Source: Psychrobacter sp. Choline-02u-9 | GTDB taxonomy: Bacteria; Pseudomonadota; Gammaproteobacteria; Pseudomonadales; Moraxellaceae | Assembly (NCBI RefSeq): GCF_002836505.1 | Contig: NZ_PJBF01000041.1 | Span: 62,001 to 126,000, forward strand | Length of the DNA stretch: 64,000 nt | Reading direction: 5' to 3' | In this document: in pieces, positions 12,988 through 28,373 of the stretch | How positions within the stretch are numbered: position 1 is the stretch's first letter | How the letters are laid out: each line of letters opens with the position of its first letter | The notes under the pieces: generated by a model | Seen by the model: only the letters and a program-made list of their open reading frames with translations | Told to the model about the DNA's origin: nothing | Databases searched by the model: none | Position numbers and translations under genes: made by a program

Positions 12988-13680
12988 ATGAGTGATAACA
13001 AAGACGAAAAGATTGAAGATGTGTTGGTAGATTCGGAATTGGCAAAAAAGCTTGTACCTAATAAGTTTAAGTTTACTAGCCAACAAGGTCGTGCACGTCG
13101 TCAAAAACTATTGGCTGGTGCCAAAAAATTGAGCGAAACGCATGCTATTAACGATATTACGTTAGCAGCTGTGTGTGAAGAAGCGGGTATACCAAGAGCG
13201 TCTGCTTACCATTTTTTCCCTAATATTGAAGCAATATTTTTAGCATTGCGTTTTTTGAATGCGATTGAAATATTAGAGATGGTAGAGACGGTCGATATTG
13301 GCAACTATGATAGATGGCAAGGGTATTTAACGGCGCTTATCGATCATTGTATTACGATATTCCATAATGATGAGACAAAAGCCAAGCTTATCTATGATAC
13401 TAATACACCTGATTTTGAAGGCGACAGCTTTGGTGAAGATATGGATCATCAAATTGTTGATTTGGTCTATAAACGTTTGTCAGAGCGTTATGAGATGCCA
13501 AACTTCCATGATATCCAAGATACTTTGTTGATTGCTTATAGCATCGTAAATGCTATCTTTACGTTGTCTTATCGCCGTCATCAGAGTATTACTGAAGAGT
13601 ATATCCAAGAAGCAAATACAGCATTTATTGCGTATTTACGTTGTTACCTACCAGAAAAGTTACCACGTAAAAACCGATAA
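12988..13680 (+). CDS. TetR/AcrR-family transcriptional regulator
   Basis: 230 aa. The N-terminal HTH region (about 35-80) reads 'ITLAAVCEEAGIPRASAYHF' followed by 'FPNIEAIFLALR', the TetR helix-turn-helix with the conserved Tyr-His-F. The rest is an all-helical ligand/dimer domain of unknown specificity. A basic linker precedes the HTH. It stands alone between converging terminators, so its target is not indicated by an obvious divergent partner. AAGAGA lies before the ATG. Confidence 0.9.
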   Translation: MSDNKDEKIEDVLVDSELAKKLVPNKFKFTSQQGRARRQKLLAGAKKLSETHAINDITLAAVCEEAGIPRASAYHFFPNIEAIFLALRFLNAIEILEMVETVDIGNYDRWQGYLTALIDHCITIFHNDETKAKLIYDTNTPDFEGDSFGEDMDHQIVDLVYKRLSERYEMPNFHDIQDTLLIAYSIVNAIFTLSYRRHQSITEEYIQEANTAFIAYLRCYLPEKLPRKNR

Positions 13681-13692
13681 TTGAGCTTACTT

Positions 13693-13736
13693 TAGACGTA
13701 AAAAAGCCGACAAATGTGTCGGCTTTTTTACGTCTA
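13693..13736. terminator. bidirectional terminator, tetR / DUF11 locus
   Basis: Perfect 20-bp inverted repeat (TAGACGTAAAAAAGCCGACA and its complement) around AATG, with T-runs in both directions. It separates the TetR gene from the convergent surface-protein locus. Confidence 0.95.
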
Positions 13737-13796
13737 ATTTTTAGCATAAGATTAAAAGTTATAGAAAGTCATATTTTTAATAAAACAGCAGTTATT

Positions 13797-14573
13797 CTAA
13801 CGGTTAGATGTCAAATCTTGTCCACGGCAAGTATCATCGCTCGCGTCTAAAGGCGAGTACTGCTTATGATAACTGACTATTGACTTCTCTAGCGCTACAT
13901 TGGTCTGTGAGTCATTGGCATTGACGTAAGCTTCGCGGGCTTGTTCAAGCCAGCGATCGGCCATACGAAAATGCATACCAGATTCGCGCCAGCCTCGCGC
14001 GCATTGATTGGTTGCTGCCCAAATCAAAGCCACTTCACTAAATGCCATCTCACGTGGTGCTGATGCTATGCCATCGCCGTCTTTAAGTGCGCTTAACGTT
14101 GCCCATAGATCAGGACGCATTAGAGCAGAGGTAGACGGAATATCTTGATGCAAGCCCAAGTCTTGTACCGTGTCATTATCTAGCGCTTGCAATATAGGCT
14201 CTGCCATTTCTAACGCAACTTGACTAGCAGATGAGCGGCTATTCATACTGTCTTGATGGATGGCATAGTTCAACCACGCTTGCGCTTTATATGCGAAATA
14301 CTGTTGAGCTGCTGTCTTGTCTTTTTGCTGATAGGGTTTTAACTGCGTGACCATACAATTTAATAGGCGCTGTTGTTCGCTTTGATATCTATAAGAGTGT
14401 GCCTGAGTCTGACTATCATCGTGGCAATATTCAGCCATGCTAGTTGAGTTAGCCATTCGGACAGTCTCACCCTTAGCTAAAGCTGGCTGCATAAAGGTTA
14501 ACGAAAATAAAGCTGATAGTGTAACGCATATTGAGCGCTTGAAAGGTGCTGCATTGATGGATGAATCAAACAT
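13797..14573 (-). CDS. exported protein of unknown function, last gene of the DUF11 locus
   Basis: 258 aa with an N-terminal signal peptide (cleavage probably after ..FMQPALA, about residue 33). The mature part is mostly helical, with four Cys (in AEYCHDD, LLNCMV, TNQCARG and DDTCRGQ) that could form two periplasmic disulfides. It includes a helix-rich stretch 'QQYFAYKAQAWLNYAIHQDS' reminiscent of N-terminal regions of some OmpA-type proteins, but there is no peptidoglycan-binding OmpA domain. I do not recognise the family. It follows the large barrel protein by 155 bases on the same strand, so an accessory role in that system (periplasmic chaperone or assembly factor) is a guess from context. 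Confidence 0.75.
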   Translation of the reverse strand: MFDSSINAAPFKRSICVTLSALFSLTFMQPALAKGETVRMANSTSMAEYCHDDSQTQAHSYRYQSEQQRLLNCMVTQLKPYQQKDKTAAQQYFAYKAQAWLNYAIHQDSMNSRSSASQVALEMAEPILQALDNDTVQDLGLHQDIPSTSALMRPDLWATLSALKDGDGIASAPREMAFSEVALIWAATNQCARGWRESGMHFRMADRWLEQAREAYVNANDSQTNVALEKSIVSYHKQYSPLDASDDTCRGQDLTSNR

Positions 14574-14677
14574 GGTGTAAACCTTATGTTAAGGTAATAA
14601 ACGTTGGTATTATTTACCATTACTAGGGCTGACTTAATTGTTTATTGAATGACAAAATAATTTGCCATAAGACAATC

Positions 14678-14715
14678 ATGATACTGTCTTAAAGATGTAC
14701 TTACGACAGTATCAT
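14678..14715 (-). repeat. intercistronic hairpin between barrel gene and 258-aa gene
   Basis: Perfect 11-bp inverted repeat ATGATACTGTC / GACAGTATCAT with a 16-base loop. There is no T-run on the minus strand, so it is more likely an mRNA-processing or stabilising hairpin than a terminator. Confidence 0.6.
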
Positions 14716-14728
14716 TAGTATCAAACAA

Positions 14729-17700
14729 TTAAAATGCAGAATTGCTGCTTAGACGTTGGTTCTTACGTGGGTCTTCACGTTTGAATAAATCTTCATCAAA
14801 TTTAAAGCGCAATCTAAAGTAAGCACCTTGCTGAGTACTGTCATCATAAGCAATATCTTCATCTTCAAAGCCCATGAAATTATAACCAAGTGATAACCAA
14901 AGGTTGGTCATTGGGCTATAACCCACTTCTGCACCAAGCATATAAGCTAAGTCATTTGCCTGATCATTCCAGTAAGTACCTGCTTGTAAACCAATATCCC
15001 AGCGCTCACTGATGTCATAAAGACCGCGGCCATAAACAGCGTGAGCCGTGTTATCGCTGGTTAAGCTGTCTGCTTCGTATTCTGTATACTTACCAGCATA
15101 CCGTCCAGACAACGTCAACGGACGCGTAGGATGGTAATTACCATTCCATGACCAAATCATGGTGTCTTTTTGGTAAGCGTCATCGCCAGTATTATTATCA
15201 TCCAAACGATATTCGAATTTTGCAAGCATATCTAACTGATTGCTATCGTAGTCACGATATGCAGCACCTAGCTGAAAACGATTGATAGTGCGATCGCCAT
15301 CACTATAGTCAGTGCGTGAGTAGATGTCTTTAGCTAAGAAAGTAACCTCATCGGTATAGCGATAGGCGATACCAGCGCTACCAAGTAGCGTATCACTTGT
15401 TTCGCCCCAACGTTTTTCAATACGTCCTGATGCCTTATAGTTCTCTTTGGCAAGATATTCAACACCGATACCTGCCGCTGTTGCAGTGTTACTTTCTTCA
15501 CCTTCCAGAGATTCAACACGCTCAAATAAAGTATTTAAAGTTAAACCTTCTTGAACATACCACTTGTTTTTTAGACCGATGGCTGCTTCTGCCTCACGTG
15601 CACTAATGGCATCGCGCATGCGGTATTCGCTATAAACCTTACCATCTTTCATGTAAGTCGCGTCAAAACCAACAGTGGTACGTTGACGCTCATCTGTATC
15701 ATCAAGACCATAAGTACCAGATAGGCTGTTGATCAAATCATGACGAGCGTATAGACGACCCAAGTCCCCAAGTGCTGTCTCACCGCCGATAGAAGTTGCA
15801 TTACGTGAGCTATTTTCGATATCTTGCTCATATTCTGCAAATACCAAGCTATCATTCAACTTAGGTAGACGAGAGGTAATACGAGCACGAACAGTCGTAC
15901 CTTCAATATCTTCTTCAGCGTTACTAACGCTGCTTAACGCTGACTGATTGATGATGTCATCATTAAACAGAGTGTCGTCTGTAATATCTACAACGTCTGT
16001 CGCCGCTTGAGTATTACGTGAGGCAGCAGTCGCGTCTTGTTTGTAATAACGAACCCCAATTTCACCAACGATGTTTTCACTTAAACGATGCTCAACGCTT
16101 GCTTGCACGCCTTCGCGGCTAGCGTCAGTAGTATGCTCTTCTGTGCGTATGCCTTCTAATTTAAGAGCAGTTTTCTTATCATTTAGAGTATGAGTAACCT
16201 CTACACCAGATTCAGTACGTCCAGCCGTAAGCGGTGATGCACCAGTGACAAAACCTTCATCAGCATCATTATAATAAGCTTTAGCTCGCGTATTTTTCTT
16301 ATTATCAAAATCAAGCTCAATACGTAGTGCGTTACCTTCAACATCACTATCAGTCAGTTCTGCCGCGTTGATTTGATTACTTGACTGAAAATTTGGGTTT
16401 TCAGCTTTGTTCATCGCATATTCTGCGACTAGCTTTAGCTTATCATTGAATTTAACAACACTATTAACACTAGCCAACTCTTCTTTGTTCAGTGGGTCAT
16501 CGCTATTCACATAGCTACCACCGATGGCGACTTTATCCGTCAGTTGTTGCTTCGCGGCAATACCACCGACGAAGTAATCTTCACCGCCTTCATCAACTTC
16601 GACAGTGACACGGATATAGATAGGATTGCCTTCGATGTCTTGACTAGCAATCGGTGCAGTTAAGAATAAGCTGCGGCTGATAGGGTCGATCTCATAATCA
16701 GCAAAGCGAGTAAGCGTCTCACGATTGATAATAAGCCCAGGGTTGTTAGCGTCACGAGTAATAACTTCAACCGTTTCAGAGTTTTCTAATACCGCATCGA
16801 AGTTCTCAGCCAATGGATATGGGCCTGAAATACCCAAACCGCGAGTCTCATTTACACGTTGGCTAGTACTGGTTTCTGCTAAAAAGGCAGTAACACGAGT
16901 GTTGCTATCTTCAAATTGAGCCTTTAGACCAGTTAATGTACGGTTGTATTGACCAAGCTTGATACCTTCGTCGTCATCAATCTGAGTTTTTAAATCACCA
17001 TACATAGCGAACGAACGGCCTTTATCAAGGCGCACGTAAAGCTTGCTAGTAGACTGCGCATCGAAGCCTTTAGCTGATGAATCGCCATAGACAGGATAGT
17101 ATTCGCCAGGCTCGATATCACGGAACAAACGCTCGCCTTTTTTATCACTATCATATGCAAGCGTAAGCAGATAGTCGCCGCGTACTTTTCCTTTTAGGAA
17201 CATCGCGGCACGACCAGAAGCTGTGTAATCATCGTTACCAGCAAAGTCATTTAGCTCTTGTTCAAATGCACCTTGAGCATCGGTAATGCTGCTACCGTCA
17301 AAGTCTTTTAGTGAAATAACACCTTCTACAATACCAACAGCAAGTAGTGGACGTAGTTGAGCAGTAAACTGTAACGGAATGATTTGTTTGCTGCTACCAG
17401 TGTCAATTACTAGCTCGCCCTTACCTGGTACGCTAGGTGCAATTACGGGTATTAATAGCTCACCACCAGAAACAGTGATTTGAGTGCCTGCTTTATCTTG
17501 ACTGTCATCCTTTAGATTGATACGACCGATATTAGTATCAAGCGTAAGAGAAGTAGTACCAATATAAGGACGATTATCGCGATCTTTTAGGCTGATGACG
17601 ACTTGGTATTCACTAATGCCATCAGCTGGAACTAACTGTGCTTGAGTACGGTAGTCGATAGCTTGTAAGCTATCAGGAGTTAATACCTTAATCGTCTGCT

Positions 17701-20041
17701 CAGAGATGACCTGACCATTTATATCAGTCGCAACACCACGTAAGGTGTTCTTGCCGCGCTGTAAATCAACAGCATAGTAATCGAAAGCCGTTACATTCTG
17801 TTTTTCTTGCTCAGCAGTTTTACCGATCTTCTGTTCTGATACAGCTTTGCCGTTGGCATATAGTGTGAACACAGACCCAAGCGGTGCCTGAACCTGTACC
17901 ATTTGTTTATAAGTGCTAAGCTGCTGACCTTCGTTCAGGTTAATGAAGGCAACATCGTTACTCGCCACTTCTTTCAAGTATTCTTCGAGCTCTTTTTCTA
18001 CTGGCGGAGCAACAGTGGTCACTGTCATATCAACACGGCTATCTATTGGATTGACCATTTCATTAACGATAGCCGAATCACAGTTATTACCAAGGTCTAA
18101 GTCACCATTGATGTTACAACCACTAGCATCTACATTGTCAGTAGTATCGGTATCATAATCAGGATCTAAAGTCAGCTCGGTTTTTACCGCTTGCTCTAAC
18201 GTGTCATTTTTAGCTTCTACTAATTTGCTACGAGCAATTAGCTCAGCGTTTAAGCGCTCAGTGCTATCTGCCATGCCACCGACGATTGCAAAATCCGCAC
18301 GATGTAATTCGCCGTACTTCAAATCAACAAAACGACTACCGGCATCACCAGCATTACGATTGCTTTGGGTAACCAGTTCAGTCTCTCTAGGGATAGTAGT
18401 ACGATCGACCTTTAGTACGTGTGTTTTGGCACTGATACCATAGAAGTTATATTTACCTTCAGGATCAGTCACGATGAAGTTGCCGTTCTCCATATAGATA
18501 CGTACACCAGCGACACCAAGCTCGCCGTCTTCTTTTTGCTGAATACCGTCGCGGTTGATATCATGATAGACCTTACCAACGATAATACCATCAGTATTCA
18601 TAACGCCGCGCTCTACATCAATCTTCCACTGCGCTTCTCTTGAGCTTACGCTTTGACCTTGTTCATTTCTAGCAATTGCGGTGGCGCGGTTAATACCATC
18701 GCCGCCTAGCGATGACGCACCGATGAGCACACGATAAGTAACTTTTTTACTTTCGCCAACTGCCATGTTTCCTAAGTTCAATACCTGATATTTACCATCA
18801 GCTTTAAACTCAGTGGTCTGCGCTTGGTTGATATCAATATCAGTCGTTGGACTAACACGTACACTGTTCTCAACGTAGTCAAAACCACGTGGTAAAGCGT
18901 CTTTTAGTTGTACATCGTAAGCAGTCGATTTGCCGTTATTGGTAATATCGATGGTATAGCTGACATAATTACCAAGCTCTGCAGTTTTGACATCGCTTTC
19001 TTTAGTGACAACCAAACTGGCACTATTATCAATTATACTTACTTGAGAACTCAGATCCTCGATAACTACAGTAAAATCGCTATTACTTGGTAGCTGATCA
19101 GCATCTGTACCAACAGAAGGAGCAATACACGCTTCTAGACTAGCAGTTAAAGTATCGTTAGCTAATGTCTGAATGAACTTATCATTAATAGCATTGGCGT
19201 TGTTTTGTGTCGGTGCAGTTAGACGATATTTGCCTGTATTATTACCAGTTTCAATTCCTTTAAGAGAATAGGTATCACCTGTTGCAGGAGACTTAACGGT
19301 AATCCATACTTGATCAGGCTTATCAGATTGTACATTACAGTGCGCGTAACTGGCATCAATATAAACGTTGTCGCCGATTTGTGAGGTAGTTTTAGTACCG
19401 TCAAATTGAGGCGTGGTAAAGTTGATTTTAGGTTCAACAATAACCAGTCTGTCAATTGCTTCGACAGCTGCTATTGATGGATCTTCTAGTATGATAGCGC
19501 CAATCTTTACATCAGCGGTATCGCCATCTTCACCCTCGGCATCTGATAGAGCCTGTACGATAAGCTGAATACTCTCACTCTGACCAAGTTTGATCTGAGC
19601 GCTCAGGTTATCGAGCATGATTTGTCGATCTTCTGAATCGACTTCTCCGTTATTATTAAGATCTTGATAGACCTTTAAATTAGAAACAGTTGGTGATATA
19701 GCAAGTGTCAGCTCAACAGTCTGACTACTATAGCCAATATTACTAAGAACATTGACCCAATTCACCAATGTATTGGGTGCGACAGTACGCAAGGGTTGCT
19801 GAGTTAAATTAATACCATATTCAGGTAAGGTAGAGGCTTTGACTTGAACTTGGTTTGAAATGCCATTTTGTTCAATAGAATCGACGTCATAAGTTGCATT
19901 AGCAATGTTATTGATAGTTTGTACGAGAGTGCTAGGCGCAGCAGACGCCATATTTGATTGCATAAGCAACATTGCAGCTGTCAGCGCAGAGATCTTCGCT
20001 GTATGCAACGTAGTACGATTAGACGTTGAGTATGTAGTCAT
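14729..20041 (-). CDS. giant DUF11 / SdrD-like surface protein with C-terminal outer-membrane beta-barrel
   Basis: 1770 aa. Start: the frame extends to TTG 20056, but GGATAAG lies six bases before ATG 20041 and the signal peptide (ending ..MASAAP) begins there. Order of parts: N-terminal beta region with a calcium-loop-like DLNNNGEVDSED (near 126-137). Then a DUF11 domain (about 340-440, 'NYVSYTIDITNNGKSTAYDV'), an SdrD_B/carboxypeptidase-regulatory-like domain (about 485-550, 'VYHDINRDGIQQKEDGELGV'), Ig/invasin-like domains (about 670-890), and from about 945 a long run of amphipathic beta strands including EYYPVYGDSSAKG. It ends ..RLSSNSAF, with a terminal Phe as in many outer-membrane barrels. 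I infer an outer-membrane barrel with a large N-terminal periplasmic or surface region. It sits downstream of two smaller DUF11-type secreted proteins, its probable partners. Exact topology is unknown. Confidence 0.85.
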   Translation of the reverse strand: MTTYSTSNRTTLHTAKISALTAAMLLMQSNMASAAPSTLVQTINNIANATYDVDSIEQNGISNQVQVKASTLPEYGINLTQQPLRTVAPNTLVNWVNVLSNIGYSSQTVELTLAISPTVSNLKVYQDLNNNGEVDSEDRQIMLDNLSAQIKLGQSESIQLIVQALSDAEGEDGDTADVKIGAIILEDPSIAAVEAIDRLVIVEPKINFTTPQFDGTKTTSQIGDNVYIDASYAHCNVQSDKPDQVWITVKSPATGDTYSLKGIETGNNTGKYRLTAPTQNNANAINDKFIQTLANDTLTASLEACIAPSVGTDADQLPSNSDFTVVIEDLSSQVSIIDNSASLVVTKESDVKTAELGNYVSYTIDITNNGKSTAYDVQLKDALPRGFDYVENSVRVSPTTDIDINQAQTTEFKADGKYQVLNLGNMAVGESKKVTYRVLIGASSLGGDGINRATAIARNEQGQSVSSREAQWKIDVERGVMNTDGIIVGKVYHDINRDGIQQKEDGELGVAGVRIYMENGNFIVTDPEGKYNFYGISAKTHVLKVDRTTIPRETELVTQSNRNAGDAGSRFVDLKYGELHRADFAIVGGMADSTERLNAELIARSKLVEAKNDTLEQAVKTELTLDPDYDTDTTDNVDASGCNINGDLDLGNNCDSAIVNEMVNPIDSRVDMTVTTVAPPVEKELEEYLKEVASNDVAFINLNEGQQLSTYKQMVQVQAPLGSVFTLYANGKAVSEQKIGKTAEQEKQNVTAFDYYAVDLQRGKNTLRGVATDINGQVISEQTIKVLTPDSLQAIDYRTQAQLVPADGISEYQVVISLKDRDNRPYIGTTSLTLDTNIGRINLKDDSQDKAGTQITVSGGELLIPVIAPSVPGKGELVIDTGSSKQIIPLQFTAQLRPLLAVGIVEGVISLKDFDGSSITDAQGAFEQELNDFAGNDDYTASGRAAMFLKGKVRGDYLLTLAYDSDKKGERLFRDIEPGEYYPVYGDSSAKGFDAQSTSKLYVRLDKGRSFAMYGDLKTQIDDDEGIKLGQYNRTLTGLKAQFEDSNTRVTAFLAETSTSQRVNETRGLGISGPYPLAENFDAVLENSETVEVITRDANNPGLIINRETLTRFADYEIDPISRSLFLTAPIASQDIEGNPIYIRVTVEVDEGGEDYFVGGIAAKQQLTDKVAIGGSYVNSDDPLNKEELASVNSVVKFNDKLKLVAEYAMNKAENPNFQSSNQINAAELTDSDVEGNALRIELDFDNKKNTRAKAYYNDADEGFVTGASPLTAGRTESGVEVTHTLNDKKTALKLEGIRTEEHTTDASREGVQASVEHRLSENIVGEIGVRYYKQDATAASRNTQAATDVVDITDDTLFNDDIINQSALSSVSNAEEDIEGTTVRARITSRLPKLNDSLVFAEYEQDIENSSRNATSIGGETALGDLGRLYARHDLINSLSGTYGLDDTDERQRTTVGFDATYMKDGKVYSEYRMRDAISAREAEAAIGLKNKWYVQEGLTLNTLFERVESLEGEESNTATAAGIGVEYLAKENYKASGRIEKRWGETSDTLLGSAGIAYRYTDEVTFLAKDIYSRTDYSDGDRTINRFQLGAAYRDYDSNQLDMLAKFEYRLDDNNTGDDAYQKDTMIWSWNGNYHPTRPLTLSGRYAGKYTEYEADSLTSDNTAHAVYGRGLYDISERWDIGLQAGTYWNDQANDLAYMLGAEVGYSPMTNLWLSLGYNFMGFEDEDIAYDDSTQQGAYFRLRFKFDEDLFKREDPRKNQRLSSNSAF

Positions 20042-20079
20042 ATGTCGCTTATCCAATAAAACATAGAAGAGTAGGTTAG

Positions 20080-20160
20080 TAACGCTCCAGTTTGGCTAAC
20101 CAAAAACGATTAGGTCAAGCTGGAGCGTTAGACTATAAGTGTCTTGTGACGCTTATAGTC
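20080..20160 (-). repeat. two tandem hairpins between the 702-aa gene and the barrel gene
   Basis: Hairpin 1: TAACGCTCCAG (20080-20090) with CTGGAGCGTTA (20120-20130). Hairpin 2: GACTATAAG (20131-20139) with CTTATAGTC (20152-20160). Neither is followed by a T-run on the minus strand. They fill most of the 139-base gap and may attenuate transcription or fix mRNA ends between highly and weakly needed products. Confidence 0.65.
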
Positions 20161-20180
20161 TTTGAAATATTAAATATAAA

Positions 20181-22289
20181 TTAACGATCGTTTTTGATTT
20201 TGATTTTAAAAGTCAAGGTGCCAACGCCGCCAGGAACTATAGTAAAGTTAGTGCCAAGAACAGCAGCACTAGTCGTACTAGGCGTGCCTGCAGTAGATGA
20301 AGCAGTCGCAGAAGTAGCAGGTGAACCAGCTACTAAATTTGCACCAGCTGAGAAGTTAGACAACAAATCCGAGATGGTTAAAGCGTTAAGATTAAAACCT
20401 AACGCTGTTGAAGAAGTGTTAGTTGCCTGAATACGATAGATGACACATTGATCAGGTTTCGCCTCGAGCGCAGTCTGAACAAAGGTACTTGCAGCAACCG
20501 TACCTGAACAAGTCTCATCTAATGCTTGAGACTTCACTAAAGTTAAGCCTCTAACGTTAGTCGTATCAGTCACTGAAGTAACAGCAGGTGGATTAATACC
20601 AGCAGGCGTTAGCGTTACAACAGAAGTTTCAGTGCTACCAACAGCTGCAGCATCATCAACAGTTGCAGGAGCAGCTACATTGCCAGACGACACATTGTAG
20701 TTGATCGCTAATTTGCCACCAGGTGCAATACCATTTGGAAATTGAGCAGTTGGTAGTGTAGTGCTATTAAGAGTATATGTATTACCACCAGCAACGGTAG
20801 GTTGCAGTGTTATAGTAACCGGGGCTCCACCACCAGGCGGCGTATAAGTAGCACTAACAGGACCAGTAACCGGTCTGACACCCACATTATTGCCACCATC
20901 GGCAATAGTGAAAGTCAATGGGTTAGCATTGGTACCTTCAGCATCTTGACCGCTGTTAGTAATGAGAGTTGAATGAGTCGCTTGACTAGCAGTACCTGAG
21001 GCAGGGGGAACTTCTCTAGTCGTTGGATTGCTCACTACAACCGCTCGTCTGGTAAAGTTAGTCACACCAGCAGTATCTATACCAGCGCCGTTACCTTCAC
21101 CTGCATCATCAGGTATTCTAGTAACGCCTATAGTGCTATCTGTACTATCCAAAATGTTATAGTCAGTATCAAGTACAGGAGCAGCAATTAACGGACTAAC
21201 CGGACCGATGAACTTATCGTAGACTTCTGCGTTGTTAGTTACTGAACTATTAGCAGCTGTAAACTGAGTTTTATCGACGTTAACCGTGAAAGTAATCGTG
21301 CGACTTGCGCCAACGGCTAAGTTCGCTACGGCAACATTAATAGCTTGTCGAGTACCAACAGTAGAGATCGTCGCGGTACCAGCACCAGTTACGGTCACAT
21401 CTGATGCTGTGCCACTAGGCAAGCTCAAACCTGCAGGAAGGACATCTCGGATGACAAAATCAGTCGCAGCAGTACTATAGTCAGTAGTCGCGTTAGTGAC
21501 TACGATACTATAAGCAATCTGTGGGTTAGCGACTGTCAAATCGACAGTACTGGTCGCTGTTTTTGTAATTTTGAAGGTAGGCAATCTCACGATAGTTTGG
21601 TTTTCGTTCACCAATGTCGCATTTGCTGGAAGATTAGCAGTAAAGAAAGTACTGGTCGCTGTTAATGTGCCTACACCTTTGTCATTACCGTTACGATCGT
21701 CTGGTGTAGCTGCTTCGTAGCTTAAGTTAGCTCTAGTACCTGGCTGTAGTCTAATAGTACCACCATTTGCTAGGGTACCTGTCTGTGCCTGACCATTCAA
21801 AGCGGTAACTTGAGCAGGAGTCAAAGCAGTACCGTCTGCTTGTACAATAGTAAACGTAACAGGCGCAGTACCCAGAGCATAGTCTGGCGTAGCTGTTACT
21901 AGGGCTGAGTCATTACCTGTGGTATTAACGGTATAAGTATCTGTCACGTTACCCGTATTGGTTAAAGCATGAGTAAAAGTAGTCGTACCACCTGGCGTAG
22001 CAGATCTATTAACAGCAGTATCGTTACCAATGCTACCATCATCAACAGTCGATACGAGTGCAAAGTTAGCTGTTTCGCTAACACTTACAGTCACCGTGTT
22101 AGAAGTAACGTTCGGCTGAGCAATGCCAGCAACGCTATAGTTTGCGGTTGCGACGTTGGTAATCGGTGCTGCTCCTGCACTAATACCACCAGTAGTATTA
22201 GGAGTAGCTGCATTAGCGGCAGTAGAGATGCCCATTGCAGCCACAACACCTACGGCTAATACTGAATATTTGAAAGAATTTGGTTTCAT
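20181..22289 (-). CDS. secreted DUF11-repeat surface protein
   Basis: 702 aa with a typical signal peptide (MKPNSFKYSV.. to ..STAANA, about 27). The mature protein is very rich in Thr, Ala, Val, Gly and Asn and poor in Lys and Cys, as expected for an extracellular beta-sandwich chain. Several DUF11/Ig-like units are visible. Examples: 'TTTFTHALTNTGNVTDTYTV' near 100; 'PQIAYSIVVTNATTDYSTAA' then 'DVLPAGLSLPSG' near 260-295; and 'SQATHSTLITNSGQDAEGTN' near 435. The last unit (about 575-702) has 'LVKSQALDETC' and 'DQCVIYRIQATN', matching the end of the 660-aa protein upstream. It follows the 155-aa gene by 41 bases and precedes the barrel protein. Likely a cell-surface or matrix protein; function unknown. 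Confidence 0.85.
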   Translation of the reverse strand: MKPNSFKYSVLAVGVVAAMGISTAANAATPNTTGGISAGAAPITNVATANYSVAGIAQPNVTSNTVTVSVSETANFALVSTVDDGSIGNDTAVNRSATPGGTTTFTHALTNTGNVTDTYTVNTTGNDSALVTATPDYALGTAPVTFTIVQADGTALTPAQVTALNGQAQTGTLANGGTIRLQPGTRANLSYEAATPDDRNGNDKGVGTLTATSTFFTANLPANATLVNENQTIVRLPTFKITKTATSTVDLTVANPQIAYSIVVTNATTDYSTAATDFVIRDVLPAGLSLPSGTASDVTVTGAGTATISTVGTRQAINVAVANLAVGASRTITFTVNVDKTQFTAANSSVTNNAEVYDKFIGPVSPLIAAPVLDTDYNILDSTDSTIGVTRIPDDAGEGNGAGIDTAGVTNFTRRAVVVSNPTTREVPPASGTASQATHSTLITNSGQDAEGTNANPLTFTIADGGNNVGVRPVTGPVSATYTPPGGGAPVTITLQPTVAGGNTYTLNSTTLPTAQFPNGIAPGGKLAINYNVSSGNVAAPATVDDAAAVGSTETSVVTLTPAGINPPAVTSVTDTTNVRGLTLVKSQALDETCSGTVAASTFVQTALEAKPDQCVIYRIQATNTSSTALGFNLNALTISDLLSNFSAGANLVAGSPATSATASSTAGTPSTTSAAVLGTNFTIVPGGVGTLTFKIKIKNDR

Positions 22290-22330
22290 GCAGTAGATCT
22301 CCGAAAGATTAAATCAGTAAGGATGAAGGG

Positions 22331-22798
22331 TTATTTGTTAACGACAGTATTAAGGGCAACAGCTGCTGCCTTTTTTGCGGGTAGTAGTTTGATGTTCCAG
22401 CGTAGCGTACGGTATTCGGAGTAGGGTACTTTGACCATTTTGCCATCGACCTTGCGCATTAGCGGCATATCAGCGTAGTTTTTACCATCAGTGCTGGCTT
22501 GTGCGCTGGCAGGGTTTGCCTCACCAGTAAAGGTCATGTTTGCAGGGACAGGCAATGTCACCATCAGATCATTAATGTCTTTATTAATGGTATTGGTATA
22601 AGTTGCTTTGTATTGAATGACAGTACCAGCTGGTGCTGTACGTACTGGTGAATAGACTGTTTTGCCGTCCGCATTCTTAATGACCTGATTAGCAGTCAGT
22701 TCCATTTTTAGAGCGTCGTCAGCATGAGCAGTACCTAGCAAACAAGCAGAGGCAAAAGTTGCTAGCATGACATTATGTAATAGGTTAAAACGTTTCAT
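22331..22798 (-). CDS. small exported DUF11-like protein
   Basis: 155 aa with signal peptide (about 1-26, ..LLGTAHA). The mature domain reads 'TAPAGTVIQYKATYTNTINK' then 'VTLPVPANMTF', the DUF11 beta-sandwich pattern, but the protein is a single short domain. It is the first gene of the locus's main transcription unit, with AAAGGATTT seven bases before its ATG, followed after 41 bases by the 702-aa DUF11 protein. It could be a periplasmic partner, a cap or a subunit of a surface polymer; none of these is shown by the sequence. Confidence 0.8.
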   Translation of the reverse strand: MKRFNLLHNVMLATFASACLLGTAHADDALKMELTANQVIKNADGKTVYSPVRTAPAGTVIQYKATYTNTINKDINDLMVTLPVPANMTFTGEANPASAQASTDGKNYADMPLMRKVDGKMVKVPYSEYRTLRWNIKLLPAKKAAAVALNTVVNK

Positions 22799-22849
22799 AT
22801 AAAATCCTTTCTTAGAACATGACTATCAGTAAAAAGCGAACGTCGTATA

Positions 22850-22910
22850 TCATGATGGAGGAGCTAGTAATCTAATATCATTCGTCGTTTTAAAAGGCAT
22901 CTACCTCCTT
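22850..22910 (-). promoter_or_regulatory. leader with strong Shine-Dalgarno and 16-codon reading frame before the 155-aa gene
   Basis: The minus strand carries AAGGAGGT, three bases before an ATG opening a 16-codon frame (MPFKTTNDIRLLAPPS, 22850-22900). AAAAGG of this site can pair with CCTTTT just after the ATG, and GGAGG with CCTCC near the end of the frame. This could be a leader peptide or a translational switch; spacing to the ATG is short, so translation is uncertain. Confidence 0.3.
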
Positions 22911-22931
22911 TTCTTGTATTTTCACGTAATT

Positions 22932-22960
22932 AATACAATTAATCATCACAAAAATGACAA
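22932..22960 (-). promoter_or_regulatory. candidate promoter of the DUF11 operon (155-aa, 702-aa, barrel, 258-aa)
   Basis: Minus strand: -35 TTGTCA (22955-22960), 17-base spacer, -10 TGTATT (22932-22937; weak). A 16-bp motif shared with the promoter of the 660-aa gene (22943-22958) overlaps the -35. Confidence 0.35.
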
Positions 22961-22986
22961 CTGGCATTTTGGAGTATACAAACGGT

Positions 22987-23014
22987 AAAAGCCCTGTCTG
23001 GTTAGACAGGGCTT
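22987..23014 (-). terminator. terminator of the 660-aa secreted protein gene
   Basis: Perfect 11-bp stem AAGCCCTGTCT / AGACAGGGCTT (22989-22999 with 23004-23014) around a four-base loop, followed by TTTT on the minus strand. It separates the 660-aa gene from the downstream DUF11 operon, so that operon needs its own promoter. Confidence 0.85.
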
Positions 23015-23039
23015 GAGTAAATGTTTAATAAACAGGTGT

Positions 23040-25022
23040 TTAGTTACTAATGATAGTACCATATTTAGTATTAAAACGAATGGCCTGACGGCGAGTGGCT
23101 GTAGTAGCACCTAAAGAAAAAGTATTGGTGGTAACTGTACCGTTGTTACCAATAGATACTGAATTTGTTGCAAATGATGGAGTGCCACTATTTTCACCAA
23201 TAGGTGTTGGATTGACTAAGGTAGAGGTAATCAATGAATTATTAGAGTCATTTTTACTCTGTAGCGTATCCTTAATAACAATATCTGCTAACGAAATATT
23301 ACCGCGATTTGTAGCTTCAATTCTATAAGCGATACATTGTCCAGGGATAATGTTAGATATTGGTTTTGTACTATACGCACTACTAGCACTACCGTCATAA
23401 TTAACACCAATTGTGGCAAGGTTATTTAGGCTACAGTCATGGACATACTGACTTTTGATTAATACCAACGCAGCATTTTCTTGAACAACATCACCAAAAT
23501 CATTGCTAGGGTAATTGTATTTACTGTTAGTAATGTCTATTTGTAGGAAGTTGCTCGTAGTATCTACAGAATATGTATAGTTGCTAGGCTCATTTTGAGT
23601 AACGCAAAGCCTTGTATAACTACCTACTTGTGCTGGCGTCAAGCTAAAACTATAGGTTCCATCATTACCAATGTTTACCGTCTGAGGTGAGAACGTACCA
23701 CTATCACCTGTACATTTGTTTAGAGTAATGGTATGACCCGTAGTAAAGGGAATACCAGATTCAGTTGGTGAATCGTATTTGCCATTGAAATAAAGACTAT
23801 TATTTAGGTATTTGCTAGATATATCGTCCTTAGACGGACTTAAGACATTACCATTATCGTTAAATACGGTGCCTGAGAACACATAGTTTGCAGTATTAGT
23901 AATAGTACAAGTAATATCATCGCCATAAGTGGCATTACTAAGCGTAAATGAACGAGTCTTGCCTGAGGCGCTATAGCTCATTGCTGAGGTAGGCATGACT
24001 GTAGTACTACCTGACGTAGCATTACTACAAATATAAGTCGCATTATAGTTCGCTATATCACCTAAGGTTGTGCCATTCATCACACGCTCAGTAATGGTAT
24101 AACTTGTGCTATCTGCTAATGTAAGCGTTGCACTGGTTCCGTTAGTGATGGTCGAGCCTGTACCAGTAGTAGTAAAGCTATTAGCAGCTAATGATCCACC
24201 ACTAACTGCTATTTCAAATTGGTCGTTAGTGTTGACACGTGTACTATTCAACGCTTTTTTTACGATGAGCTTAGGCGGTGCCAGACAGAAATAGAAGTCT
24301 GAATAACCTACTAAATGATCACCAGTTGACGTTGTCGTGGAGGCACCAGAGTATGGATTACCATGTGTGGTTACAAATGGCGTATTTGCTGATTGGGCTT
24401 CCCATTCAATATTAAAATTACATGGACTACTAGGACTACAGTTTGCCCACTGGTTTGCAGTAATCGTTTTATTCGAATTGGATACAGTAAAGTTGTTAGC
24501 GAAATTGCTAAAAGAACCACCTGTAGTAACAATTGATACGGACTCAGTGTATCTTCCAGCAGCATTTGCATCTAAGTCTTGAACGACAAAACCGTATTTT
24601 GTAACGGGTTTATTAATAGTGGCCGTCAACCTGTGATTCACATCAATTTTTTCGCTGCTATGACGCATGTTAAGAGCATTGGTAGTAACACCAGCAAAAC
24701 TGCTAACTTCTGGATAGCCAGTCCTAATAAAGTTAATATCAGAAAAAGATAAGACGAGTTTAAGACCACTGTCAAAGCTATAAGTGGTACTAGAGTTGCC
24801 TGCTGCTGACCAACTCAAGGTGGCCTTAGGCGCTGTTGTAGTACTCTTAGAGCCTAAGTAATACATAGCATGTCCACTTGGACATACAGGAGCAGCTTCA
24901 GCAAAAGCTACATTGCTAATCAAAAACATAGGAATAGCAGCTAGCAATGTCATTATCTGACATATATATCTATTGAATAAATGCTTTTTTGTTGAATTCA
25001 AAAGTCGCTGTACTTGTCGCAT
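23040..25022 (-). CDS. secreted multi-domain beta-sandwich protein with DUF11-type C-terminal module
   Basis: 660 aa with a long signal peptide (about 41 residues, ..FLISNVAFA). Parts in order: an N-terminal domain (about 45-250) beginning with APVCPSGHAMYYLG; a prealbumin-like domain (about 255-385, 'LIVKKALNSTRVNTNDQFEI', 'ITCTITNTANYVFSG'); an SdrD-like or carboxypeptidase-regulatory-like domain (about 385-515, 'GTVFNDNGNVL', 'YSFSLTPAQVGSY'); and a C-terminal module (about 525-660) with 'LVLIKSQYVHDC' and 'PGQCIAYRIEATN'. That last module matches the end of the 702-aa protein. Rich in Ser, Thr and Asn. It has its own promoter and terminator but shares orientation, composition and the terminal module with the locus, so it is probably cargo of the same surface system. 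No barrel or anchor of its own is visible. Confidence 0.8.
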   Translation of the reverse strand: MRQVQRLLNSTKKHLFNRYICQIMTLLAAIPMFLISNVAFAEAAPVCPSGHAMYYLGSKSTTTAPKATLSWSAAGNSSTTYSFDSGLKLVLSFSDINFIRTGYPEVSSFAGVTTNALNMRHSSEKIDVNHRLTATINKPVTKYGFVVQDLDANAAGRYTESVSIVTTGGSFSNFANNFTVSNSNKTITANQWANCSPSSPCNFNIEWEAQSANTPFVTTHGNPYSGASTTTSTGDHLVGYSDFYFCLAPPKLIVKKALNSTRVNTNDQFEIAVSGGSLAANSFTTTGTGSTITNGTSATLTLADSTSYTITERVMNGTTLGDIANYNATYICSNATSGSTTVMPTSAMSYSASGKTRSFTLSNATYGDDITCTITNTANYVFSGTVFNDNGNVLSPSKDDISSKYLNNSLYFNGKYDSPTESGIPFTTGHTITLNKCTGDSGTFSPQTVNIGNDGTYSFSLTPAQVGSYTRLCVTQNEPSNYTYSVDTTSNFLQIDITNSKYNYPSNDFGDVVQENAALVLIKSQYVHDCSLNNLATIGVNYDGSASSAYSTKPISNIIPGQCIAYRIEATNRGNISLADIVIKDTLQSKNDSNNSLITSTLVNPTPIGENSGTPSFATNSVSIGNNGTVTTNTFSLGATTATRRQAIRFNTKYGTIISN

Positions 25023-25125
25023 CTCAATATTCCTATGTACTAAAGCCTAATGTAAACGTTTATTTACCAAAAAAAATTGTGTTATATATATTTTGTATAT
25101 TAAGTAATATTTTTGTAAAAATCAT

Positions 25126-25154
25126 ATTAAATAGATGAATGGCATTTTTGTCAT
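25126..25154 (-). promoter_or_regulatory. candidate promoter of the 660-aa protein gene
   Basis: Minus strand: -35 ATGACA (25149-25154), 17-base spacer, -10 TTTAAT (25126-25131); each matches the sigma-70 consensus at five of six positions. It lies about 105 bases before the ATG. The motif GGCATTTTTGTCATGA (plus strand 25141-25156) covers the -35. Confidence 0.5.
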
Positions 25155-25283
25155 GACCAGTTACCCTATGTTGCAAGATTAACCAGTCATATTCCACAAA
25201 GCTATCAATTAATAATATTTACCTAACAACTAATCATTATTTATTTAAAAAATACTTGTTATTTCATCATTTCTCTACAGCCA

Positions 25284-25312
25284 TAAACAACTAGCGCGTA
25301 AACGCTTATAAT
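25284..25312 (+). promoter_or_regulatory. candidate aceE promoter
   Basis: -35 TAAACA (25284-25289), 17-base spacer, perfect -10 TATAAT (25307-25312). This implies a leader of about 245 bases before aceE. I see no PdhR-type operator in that leader. Confidence 0.45.
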
Positions 25313-25562
25313 GGAATGTCATAGTAATTAACATTTGAATAGAATAGTCGTAGCATTATGACGGTTTGGCAGGTGCGTTGATTTGATGCATTTGTCGATA
25401 TGAGTAATACTATTTTTATAATCTAGCAGTATGTCATCGCACAAAACAATGGAATGCTTGGACGTAGCAAGGATGTCATAAGTAAACCAATCTCTCATCA
25501 TGCATTTTTCAATGAAGCCCTGCCATTAGGTAGGTATGACTGATATAAAAGGATTAACAAGA

Positions 25563-28373
25563 ATGAATTATTATAAGGATGCTGATAGCACCGAAACTCA
25601 GGAATGGCTGGCAGCCTTTGAGTCTGTGGTTAAACACGCAGACAAGGACCGTGCTCAGTTCCTCCTAAAAGCCTTATACAATATGGCAGTTCAAGAAGGG
25701 TTGCCGTTCAACAGACTAGACACTGCGTACGTCAATAGTATCGCTGTTGAAGATGAGCCGATGTACCCAGGCGACCTAGGCATGGAGCGTAAGATACGCG
25801 CTTTGATTCGTTATAATGCACTTGCTATGGTCATGCGCGCCAATAAAAACGACGATGATCTAGGTGGTCACTTAGCGACATTTGCCTCTAGTGCGACACT
25901 TTATGAAACGGGTTTTAACCATTTCTTCCGCGCCGCTAGCGATCACTTCGGTGGCGACATGATCTATTATCAAGGTCACTCAGCACCAGGTATCTATGCA
26001 CGCTCTTATCTAGAAGGTCGTTTGACCGAAGATCAGCTTGATAACTTCCGCCGTGAAGTAGGCGGCAAAGGCCTATCAAGCTATCCGCATCCATATCTAA
26101 TGCCGGATTACTGGCAGTTCCCAACGGTATCAATGGGACTGGGCCCAATCATGTCTATCTATCACGCCCATGTACATCGCTATATGGAAAATCGTGGATT
26201 GCTAGAAAAAGAAGGTCGTAAGATTTGGACATTCTTAGGTGATGGTGAAACGGATGAGCCAGAAAGCTTGGGTGCTATTTCTCTGGCAGGTCGTGAGAAG
26301 CTGGACAACCTAATATGGGTAGTCAACTGTAACTTGCAGCGTCTTGATGGTCCAGTCCGTGGTAACGGTAAAATCATTCAGGAGCTAGAGTCAGTATTTC
26401 GCGGCGCAGGCTGGCGAGTCATCAAAGTCATTTGGGGTGGCAACTGGGATTCATTACTTGGTAAAGATCATACGGGTGTGCTTAAACAACGTATGGAAGA
26501 AGTGGTGGATGGCGAGTATCAGCTATATGAAGCGCGTACGCCTGAATTTACTCGCAAAGAGTTCTTTGGTAAATATCCAGAGCTAGAAGAGATGGCAGAT
26601 GCGTTGTCTGACGAAGAAATCTCACGTCTAAACCGTGGCGGCCATGATCCAGTTAAAGTTTATGCTGCATTTAGTGAAGCTATGAAAACCAAAGGCCAAC
26701 CAACGGTTATTTTGGTTAAGACCGTTAAAGGTTATGGCTTGTCTGCCCAAACACAAGCAGTCAACAAATCGCATCAGGTCAAAAAGCTTGATCAAGAAGC
26801 GTTGATGTATTTCCGTGATCGTTTTGATTTGCCATTTACTGATGAGCAGTTAGAGACTCTACCATTTTATCGCCCTGAAGAAGGTTCGGCGGAGATGAAG
26901 TATCTCAAAGGTCGTCGCGAGTCGTTAGGTGGTCATCTACCAAACCGCCGTAGTGGTCATATTCCACTGAATATCCCTGAACTATCAATGTTTGATCGGG
27001 TGTTAAAAGGCAGCAATGGTAAAGAGCAATCGACGACGATGGTATTTGTACGATTGCTATCTGCGATGCTCAAAAACAAAGACATCCAAGATCGCGTCGT
27101 ACCAATCGTACCTGACGAAGCACGTACTTTCGGTCTAGAAGGTATGTTCCGTCAATTGGGTATTTATTCGGCTGTTGGTCAAAAATATACGCCAGAAGAC
27201 AGTGAAGCGCTGATGGGCTATAAAGAAGCTATCGATGGTCACATGTTAGAAGAAGGTATCAACGAAGCAGGCGCAATGAGTACTTGGATTGCATTGGCAA
27301 CCAGTTATTCTGTGAACGCGCTACCGATGATTCCGATGTATATCTATTACTCTATGTTTGGTTTCCAACGTGTGGGAGATTTGGCTTGGGCAGCAGGCGA
27401 TTGTCAAGCACAGGGCTTCTTATTGGGTGCAACGGCTGGTCGTACAACGCTTAATGGCGAAGGCTTGCAGCATCAAGATGGTCATTCTCAAATCTTGTTC
27501 AATGTCGTGCCAAACTGTGTTAGCTATGATCCTTGCTTTGGTTATGAGCTAGCTGTGGTCATGCATGACGGTCTACGCCGTATGTATGGTGAAGGCGAGC
27601 GCGTTTACTATTACTTGACGTTGATGAACGAAAACTACGAGCAACCTGCTATGCCAGAAGGTGCCGAAGAAGGTATCAAACGTGGTATGTACTTGCTTGA
27701 AGACAATGGTTCAACACAAGTGCAACTACTAGGTTCTGGTGTTATCTTACGCGAAGTACAGAAGGCATCACAAATACTAAAAGACGAGTTCAATATTACG
27801 TCCAACGTTTGGAGCGTAACCAGCTTTAATGAGCTGACTCGAGATGGTATGGTTTGTGATGATTACAACCGTCTACATCCAATGGACGAAGAGAAAGTGC
27901 CTTGGGTTACTGAGCAATTAGCACCGCACGAAGGTATTGTGGTTGCAGCGACAGATTATATGCGTAACTACTCAGAGCAAATCCGTGCTTGGTTGCCAGA
28001 CAACCGTCCTTACACGACTCTAGGTACCGATGGTTATGGCCGTTCTGATACGCGCGAAAACCTACGTAGTTTCTTTAACGTTGATGCGGCGCATATCGTT
28101 GTGGCAACGCTTAAACGTCTAGCCGATGAAGGCGAAGTTGAGATGCGTTTGGTTAAAGACGCGATTTCAAGCTTAGGTATCGATGTGGATCATCCACCTG
28201 CATGGCAGCAGCAGTCTTACTATGATCAGTCTCCAGATGCACCAGCACCAGGTAACGTAAATCCAAATCCTGTACCTGAGTTTATCGCTGAAGACGATGA
28301 TGAAATCAGTAATGAAGGCCGTGCTGAAGATCAAGCAGATGCAAATGTACTTGATGATAAAGATGTCAAATAA
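25563..28373 (+). CDS. aceE: pyruvate dehydrogenase E1 component, homodimeric type
   Basis: Thiamine-diphosphate enzyme that decarboxylates pyruvate and reductively acetylates the lipoyl groups of E2. The ThDP motif is clear: GDGETDEPESLG ... LIWVVNCNLQRLDGPV (about residues 225-265). The length, 936 aa, is close to E. coli AceE (887) plus an acidic C-terminal tail of about 40 residues. The frame opens at ATG 25536, but alignment to E. coli (which begins about ten residues before the ETRDWL-equivalent) and AGGATTAAC upstream favour ATG 25563, giving MNYYKDADSTETQEW. First gene of aceE-aceF; the E2 gene follows after 28 bases. The E3 gene lpd is not in the window. Confidence 0.95.
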   Translation: MNYYKDADSTETQEWLAAFESVVKHADKDRAQFLLKALYNMAVQEGLPFNRLDTAYVNSIAVEDEPMYPGDLGMERKIRALIRYNALAMVMRANKNDDDLGGHLATFASSATLYETGFNHFFRAASDHFGGDMIYYQGHSAPGIYARSYLEGRLTEDQLDNFRREVGGKGLSSYPHPYLMPDYWQFPTVSMGLGPIMSIYHAHVHRYMENRGLLEKEGRKIWTFLGDGETDEPESLGAISLAGREKLDNLIWVVNCNLQRLDGPVRGNGKIIQELESVFRGAGWRVIKVIWGGNWDSLLGKDHTGVLKQRMEEVVDGEYQLYEARTPEFTRKEFFGKYPELEEMADALSDEEISRLNRGGHDPVKVYAAFSEAMKTKGQPTVILVKTVKGYGLSAQTQAVNKSHQVKKLDQEALMYFRDRFDLPFTDEQLETLPFYRPEEGSAEMKYLKGRRESLGGHLPNRRSGHIPLNIPELSMFDRVLKGSNGKEQSTTMVFVRLLSAMLKNKDIQDRVVPIVPDEARTFGLEGMFRQLGIYSAVGQKYTPEDSEALMGYKEAIDGHMLEEGINEAGAMSTWIALATSYSVNALPMIPMYIYYSMFGFQRVGDLAWAAGDCQAQGFLLGATAGRTTLNGEGLQHQDGHSQILFNVVPNCVSYDPCFGYELAVVMHDGLRRMYGEGERVYYYLTLMNENYEQPAMPEGAEEGIKRGMYLLEDNGSTQVQLLGSGVILREVQKASQILKDEFNITSNVWSVTSFNELTRDGMVCDDYNRLHPMDEEKVPWVTEQLAPHEGIVVAATDYMRNYSEQIRAWLPDNRPYTTLGTDGYGRSDTRENLRSFFNVDAAHIVVATLKRLADEGEVEMRLVKDAISSLGIDVDHPPAWQQQSYYDQSPDAPAPGNVNPNPVPEFIAEDDDEISNEGRAEDQADANVLDDKDVK

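Follow-up and report, generated by a model that had tools for sequence, protein, structure and literature searches.

A gene set with apparently split DUF11 domains in Psychrobacter sp. Choline-02u-9, a candidate donor-strand fibre with an outer-membrane barrel anchor

The window analysed here is a stretch of 64,000 nucleotides from Psychrobacter sp. Choline-02u-9 (contig NZ_PJBF01000041.1, positions 62,001 to 126,000). Between positions 13797 and 25022 it contains five open reading frames (ORFs), all on the minus strand, that encode in order of transcription proteins of 660, 155, 702, 1770 and 258 amino acids (aa). They are termed tip, cap, shaft, base and downstream protein after the fibre that is proposed for them below, and donor strands and acceptor domains denote the two parts of an apparently split DUF11 domain. 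The first-pass annotation of this stretch described five consecutive exported proteins; all five ORFs were recovered where it had placed them, with Sec-type signal peptides read by eye at their N-termini. The genes are the following:

23040..25022, minus strand: tip, 660 aa, with a SpaA_3 domain and an unfinished C-terminal DUF11 domain
22331..22798, minus strand: cap, 155 aa, one DUF11-like domain that ends at the same strand as the acceptors, with Ala36 in place of Lys and Leu82 in place of Asp
20181..22289, minus strand: shaft, 702 aa, with an N-terminal donor and a C-terminal acceptor
14729..20041, minus strand: base, 1770 aa, with an N-terminal donor, DUF11, SdrD_B-like and Ig-like domains and a predicted C-terminal barrel
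13797..14573, minus strand: downstream protein, 258 aa, homologous to the N-terminal part of OmpA-family proteins of about 400 aa and lacking the OmpA domain

An alternative upstream TTG start would extend the base from 1770 aa (ATG, 20041) to 1775 aa, reaching 20056. Its DUF11 match at residues 343-455 (E 5.3e-13) is over the Pfam cut-off, while the SdrD_B match at residues 490-555 (E 8.5e-7) is near-threshold with 29.6 bits against a cut-off of 29.7. The tip contains SpaA_3 at residues 252-378 (E 8.5e-25, Pfam) and a partial DUF11-like domain at its C-terminus that is over the TIGR01451 cut-off, whereas the DUF11-type matches of the shaft and the cap are weak and lie under it. The 155-, 702- and 1770-aa proteins had been grouped as a series with the 660-aa protein set apart behind a promoter of its own. 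That series of three stands, but the 660-aa protein belongs to it too because it has the same kind of unfinished end domain as the 702-aa protein. The separate promoter found no backing, as a scan of 13400-25600 gave 39 promoter-like sites compared with 32.5 (standard deviation 5.2) in shuffles, which is no clear excess over shuffled sequence.

At this locus the last two strands of a complete DUF11 domain are one of the pattern I-x-N-x-A and another after Ser-Asn. In shafts and tips the C-terminal domain breaks off ahead of the I-x-N-x-A strand. The DUF11 domain appears to be split between proteins, with tip and shaft lacking the last strands, and these strands standing at the mature N-termini of shaft and base. 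The parts concerned are the following, all on the minus strand:

23043..23489, minus strand: tip acceptor domain, residues ~512-660 (start approximate), with Lys523 at 23454-23456 and Asp585 at 23268-23270
22080..22163, minus strand: shaft donor strands, ITNVATANY ... SNTVTVSV, with the conserved Asn45 at 22155-22157
20184..20567, minus strand: shaft acceptor domain, residues ~575-702 (start approximate), with Lys586 at 20532-20534 and Asp641 at 20367-20369
19835..19915, minus strand: base donor strands, INNIANATY ... SNQVQVKA, with the conserved Asn45 at 19907-19909
18677..19015, minus strand: complete internal DUF11 domain of the base, residues 343-455, Pfam match

No donor motif was seen at the N-terminus of the window tip.

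For comparison, the best 79 distinct loci were kept from 576 relatives among 594 candidate stretches in a species collection. The listed loci come from Psychrobacter, Acinetobacter, Alkanindiges, Gallionella and other lineages; closest to the window, whose host genome measures 3.39 Mb, are Psychrobacter loci with barrel identities of up to 99%. Bases were defined as proteins of at least 1600 aa, shafts as 550-1100 aa encoded next upstream and caps as 140-210 aa; under these size-class rules some shorter shaft-like genes (L083-L086, L082, L109, L140) fall outside the shaft counts. The tip class, the third gene upstream with at least 400 aa, is assigned by position alone and includes four second shafts (L090, L091, L112, L156) as well as some unrelated genes, among them one for a symporter and one for a dehydrogenase. 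A redundancy filter (shared 4-mers below half) was applied before the counts of donor motifs, acceptor ends and residues.

A base of at least 1600 aa is encoded in 76 of the listed loci. Directly upstream of it lie a shaft-sized and then a cap-sized gene in 65 of the 76, a third gene of at least 400 aa follows further upstream in 49, and a same-strand gene lies within 600 nucleotides downstream in 72. More than chance is needed to account for this order of shaft, cap and base, and the earlier expectation that the genes adjoin in other genomes is borne out. Shaft-sized and cap-sized genes take the same order outside the Moraxellaceae, in L158 (Desulfuromonadales), L159 (Betaproteobacteria), L163 (Thermodesulfovibrionales), L168 (Gammaproteobacteria) and the Gallionella loci L170 and L171. 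Among 149 genomes of the family, homologues at E <= 0.001 were found for the base in 67, the shaft in 42, the tip in 42, the downstream protein in 52 and the cap in 94, the last count including paralogues elsewhere. Of 41 genomes of the genus, 34 have a match to the base, one of them only a 36-residue remnant, and across the phylum the barrel profile matches 35 of 299 sampled genomes with the host genome counted in. Second shafts occur at the four loci named above, L089 comprises two tandem shaft-base sets, and L092 (5915-13105) is a divergent two-gene form within the family which, read by eye, combines DUF11 repeats and OmpA-like sequence in one protein followed by a separate barrel.

The apparent split recurs across these loci. 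Tips end -3 to +4 residues from the end of the acceptor profile (22 hits), which is independent of them, whereas the shaft ends at -2 to +8 residues (56/56) fit by construction because the profile was built from shaft C-termini. By comparison, 77 of 79 internal DUF11 domains continue to the Asn-Ala strand within 32 residues, a pattern that also occurs in 0.39 of random 32-aa windows. The donor motif, which was written after reading the sequences, was detected N-terminally in 56/56 shafts and 37/45 bases, the eight other bases showing variants or being shortened nearby (L116, L120). Elsewhere it is found in 4/39 caps (shuffle expectation 1.6), 5/44 tips, four of which are second shafts (2.5), 0/58 downstream proteins (1.5) and 22/336 other ORFs (8.4).

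DUF11 is equated with CLIPPER, an isopeptide-forming Ig-like domain, in a recent study, in which the crystal structure of a DUF11 domain from Acinetobacter silvestris has a Lys-Asn isopeptide bond with an Asp nearby (PMC12617251). A PDB sequence search with the 1770-aa and 702-aa proteins and an 893-aa homologue returned nothing at E <= 1, and a six-row DUF11 profile matched five PDB sequences, including 9ifr ('OmpA-like domain-containing protein', 123 aa), which is taken, without proof, to be the published CLIPPER crystal. GhpA, the grappling hook protein of Aureispira, is matched by the DUF11 profile (window 18602-19015) as well (9flp, E 7.8e-5). In the present alignments the acceptor Lys is kept in 56/56 shafts and 40/44 tips and the acceptor Asp in 55/56 and 41/44, and the donor Asn is present in 100 of 101 shaft and base N-termini aligned without use of the motif. 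Of the internal DUF11 domains, 71/79 combine Lys, Asp and the Asn strand. When the caps are aligned to the acceptor fold, neither Lys nor Asp is found at those columns in any of them (0/39 for each). No other single observation argues as strongly for a covalent joint and a non-reactive cap as this pattern, in which the reactive residues are retained on two partners and both are lost in a third protein, the cap, with the same fold. Judged from these alignments, donor and acceptor are probably linked by an intermolecular isopeptide bond. Donor-strand joining could instead be real and non-covalent, since not every DUF11 domain forms the bond (PMC12617251) and the bond is here a prediction from sequence. 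That Lys, Asp and Asn are almost invariant on opposite partners, and that Lys and Asp are lost jointly in the cap, speaks against this, and the non-covalent reading is regarded as unlikely, though a serious contender.

The joint between shaft and base was modelled with AlphaFold2 for Psychrobacter sp. 4Dc (L095), in which the mature shaft and the base N-terminus were made contiguous with stops read as Gly. The model has a mean predicted local distance difference test score (pLDDT) of 77.0 and a predicted template modelling score (pTM) of 0.49; residues 649-734 are poorly ordered, and the base donor beyond them is ordered with strands at 737-742, 745-750 and 765-770. Of the 50 structural matches listed, 40 have their last residue at 762-773, which is within the base donor or where it ends, and none of the 50 ends at the shaft C-terminus (648). 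The closest solved folds of the last shaft domain completed by the base donor are the pilins RrgB, BcpA and SpaD, and pilin domains account for 14 single-domain matches, which begin at 484-522 and finish at 768-771, with a root-mean-square deviation (rmsd) of 2.6-4.3 over 127-143 residues. Since none of the 50 matches listed starts before residue 54, every one of them leaves out the donor motif of the shaft itself (21-30). These ranges indicate that, in this one relative, the base donor docks into the last domain of the shaft.

The same model bears on the reading that the proteins are separate fibrillar adhesins without subunit exchange, in which short C-terminal domains would be tolerated and the N-terminal strands would belong to each protein's own first domain. 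Consistent with such adhesins, there are solitary DUF11-like proteins of one domain that have the same short end, and in the model the N-terminal strand of the shaft is partly ordered by itself. They would not account for the fixed gene order or for Lys and Asp being kept where the Asn strand is not on the same chain, and the matches to the first shaft domain begin at residue 54 or later and leave the donor out. Separate adhesins are very improbable on this balance.

The cap is predicted to adopt an acceptor-like fold without the reactive residues. Because it has the same unfinished fold and neither Lys nor Asp, its binding of donors would be expected to be reversible, with a role as chaperone or chain cap. 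Stand-alone exported one-domain DUF11-like proteins that stop after the same strand as the cap occur in the host genome and in a relative from another genus (L237 4213-4809, L238 4365-5258, L242 6363-6899). In three genomes of the genus without an intact base the cap gene is kept in place (L239 3612-4076, L240 3723-4205, L241 6386-6934), and L239 and L240 also retain a homologue of the 258-aa protein at the same place (2521-3321 and 2825-3616, respectively). The lipobox-like N-termini of these two homologues, read by eye, suggest that they may be lipoproteins.

The base residues 690-1770 were modelled from 40 sequences with a mean pLDDT of 71.7 and a pTM of 0.53. In the model, Ig-like domains with pLDDT mostly at 80-91 are followed by a stretch of poor prediction and then by barrel strands; Ig-like domains and barrel strands are placed on the window as follows:

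17357..17974, minus strand: Ig-like beta domains ahead of the barrel, base residues 690-895
14804..16624, minus strand: predicted barrel strands, base residues ~1140-1746

With 32 strands predicted between residues 1140 and 1746, the C-terminus of the base is predicted to form a large barrel of about 32 strands, and the C-terminal barrel that had been assigned to the 1770-aa protein is upheld by this structure prediction. The C-terminal domain of classical (type Va) autotransporters, PF03797, was not found in the protein at E <= 1. The barrel might act as a conduit in the manner of an usher or of SprA, through which tip and shaft would be exported before the base completes the chain. This would extend the fibre proposal, not oppose it, and is held tentatively, at somewhat less than even likelihood. 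In VIA the FimD usher ranks first (Z 14.4, rmsd 5.2 over 338 aligned residues), in Foldseek the type IX secretion system translocon SprA ranks first (E 2.1e-8, template modelling (TM) score 0.18), and about 32 strands would give a wide lumen. However, SlpA follows FimD within 1 in VIA (Z 13.9), many other barrels score 11-13 with SprA at 11.8 over 297 residues, and SlpA and LptD are also hit by Foldseek with low TM-scores. Usher homology was dropped, as no sequence relation was detected: the Usher family PF00577 matches neither the 1770-aa protein (E <= 1) nor the host genome, and hhalign gives 0.2% for barrel against usher (1.8% and 1.9% for comparisons with LptD), without a positive control at that sensitivity. 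The structure is called a large barrel and not an usher because of the PF00577 and hhalign results. In addition, a Pfam search confined to the five proteins gave no pilus-chaperone family at E <= 1.

Other genera have, in place of the 258-aa gene, one for a homologue of about 400 aa with a C-terminal OmpA domain, and 17 of the 45 downstream proteins scanned (out of 58) contain this domain. In L083, from one genus, an OmpA domain lies within the base between the DUF11 part and the barrel, so that both functions are on one chain; if it binds peptidoglycan, this segment would be in the periplasm. The downstream OmpA-family relative probably helps to hold the base from the periplasmic side. The OmpA domains of the downstream homologues and of the L083 base, ahead of its barrel, together with the L092 protein that joins DUF11 repeats to OmpA-like sequence beside a separate barrel, could be cited for a periplasmic scaffold, in which the same donor-strand chain would be kept between outer membrane and peptidoglycan as a tether with nothing on the surface. 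The pattern of divergence argues otherwise. Across 17 Psychrobacter loci compared with the window, tips are 32-93% identical (15 loci with a true tip, the L156 'tip' being a second shaft at 22% and excluded) and shafts 33-88%, as against 84-99% for base residues 901-1140, 75-99% for 1141-1770, 71-96% for caps and 42-96% for downstream proteins. Tip and shaft are the most divergent parts, far beyond cap and barrel. Furthermore, SpaA_3 is present in 21 and SpaA_4 in 13 of 40 tips (39 of the 44 and that of the window), and SpaA-type domains are usual in surface proteins. A purely periplasmic scaffold is accordingly considered improbable.

The stretch between shaft and base contains a further feature:

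20042..20180, minus strand: shaft-base intergenic stretch, two strong predicted hairpins, minimum free energy -44.8 kcal/mol

Similar hairpins occur in many loci: shaft-base gaps have a median of -0.26 kcal/mol per nucleotide and a longest stem of 13 (76 gaps), whereas cap-shaft gaps, mostly without strong hairpins, have -0.08 kcal/mol per nucleotide and 5 (65 gaps), counts that include records of one genome present twice. As the median gap lengths differ (111 compared with 47 nucleotides), this contrast only hints that shaft is made in excess of base.

Computation supports the split, the conserved residues, the gene order and, in one relative, the predicted docking. Taken together they make it quite likely that the locus encodes a sortase-free, head-to-tail donor-strand fibre built from split DUF11 (CLIPPER) domains and anchored by an outer-membrane barrel. 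The tip would be an acceptor only; the shaft, with its N-terminal donor and C-terminal acceptor, could repeat; and the base, with a donor and an outer-membrane barrel, would end and anchor the chain. Each donor would give its last two strands, with the conserved Asn, to the C-terminal domain of the preceding subunit, which holds Lys and Asp, and the three residues would probably close the intermolecular isopeptide bond without an enzyme. We infer in addition that the fibre would be exposed at the surface and may pass through the barrel.

Several observations weigh against this proposal. Some genomes that lack shaft and base still contain a cap, and related one-domain proteins occur by themselves, so the cap may serve a different purpose. 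Searches for the base found none in 7 of the 41 genomes of the genus, and the L089 shaft has Ser at the donor Asn position. A donor profile gave 19 internal hits (i-E, independent E-value, <= 0.1) of which only 2 are within the preset distance, and the acceptor profile, as said, derives from shaft C-termini. Docking is deduced from the ranges of structural alignments in a single artificial read-through fusion, where nearness in the fused chain favours docking, and the shaft's own donor is partly strand in that model (13-24, pLDDT 52-74).

The first-pass annotation had the barrel protein anchor the others into a fibre, and this is retained as a reading, now with a predicted barrel and neighbouring genes in other genomes. 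What it did not contain are the split DUF11 domains and the Lys/Asp/Asn pattern that hint at how the parts join, the cap as a non-reactive acceptor-like fold, and the 258-aa protein as an OmpA-family relative. Whether the locus represents a distinct Gram-negative surface fibre is an evenly balanced question: it would be joined by self-catalysed isopeptide bonds across donor strands and would involve neither a sortase nor the usher family. In such a fibre a non-reactive cap would guard the strands that react, and the terminating subunit would carry a fused giant barrel serving both as conduit and as anchor. No description of such a system was found in the literature searched, most subscription papers and all bioRxiv preprints being outside its scope. 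If the proposal is true, it would provide a function for the DUF11 and barrel gene set of Psychrobacter, Acinetobacter, Alkanindiges, Gallionella and other lineages, add a self-linking fibre type to Gram-negative surface structures and supply natural split isopeptide pairs for protein linking, with the cap as a natural non-reactive control.

In chaperone-usher pili the subunits lack the last Ig-like strand, which is supplied by the N-terminus of the next subunit, and the tip has no donor. The present locus would follow the same chain logic, as a sequence pattern and one model suggest: the tip has no donor, the shaft combines donor and acceptor, and the base joins a donor to an anchor. Unlike these pili, it would employ another fold family, a barrel fused to the terminal subunit and probably a covalent link. 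SpyTag/SpyCatcher, a split isopeptide domain completed by a reactive strand, was engineered from a CnaB domain, whereas the locus would be its natural counterpart through a split of a CnaA-like domain. The type 11 secretion family DUF560/Slam gave no match in a search confined to the five proteins of the locus. The sortase pilins RrgB, BcpA and SpaD are the closest in fold to the completed last shaft domain, and no C-terminal sorting signal was read in the tip or shaft, both of which end right after the last strand of the domain. Gram-positive sortase pili have Lys-Asn bonds within subunits that are joined by sortase (PMC3132780). The archaeal threads of Saci_0406 are described as a donor-strand filament with a proposed intermolecular isopeptide bond via the N-terminal Asp24 (PMC9715654); compared by this published description only, they differ in being archaeal, in having no outer membrane and in the Asp24 bond. 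The main text of the CLIPPER study contains neither the word 'donor' nor 'split' (PMC12617251). Its DUF11 domain (PF01345) is of the same family, with the Lys, Asp and Asn of the Acinetobacter silvestris crystal, and its bond lies within one chain, whereas at this locus the residues lie on two proteins.

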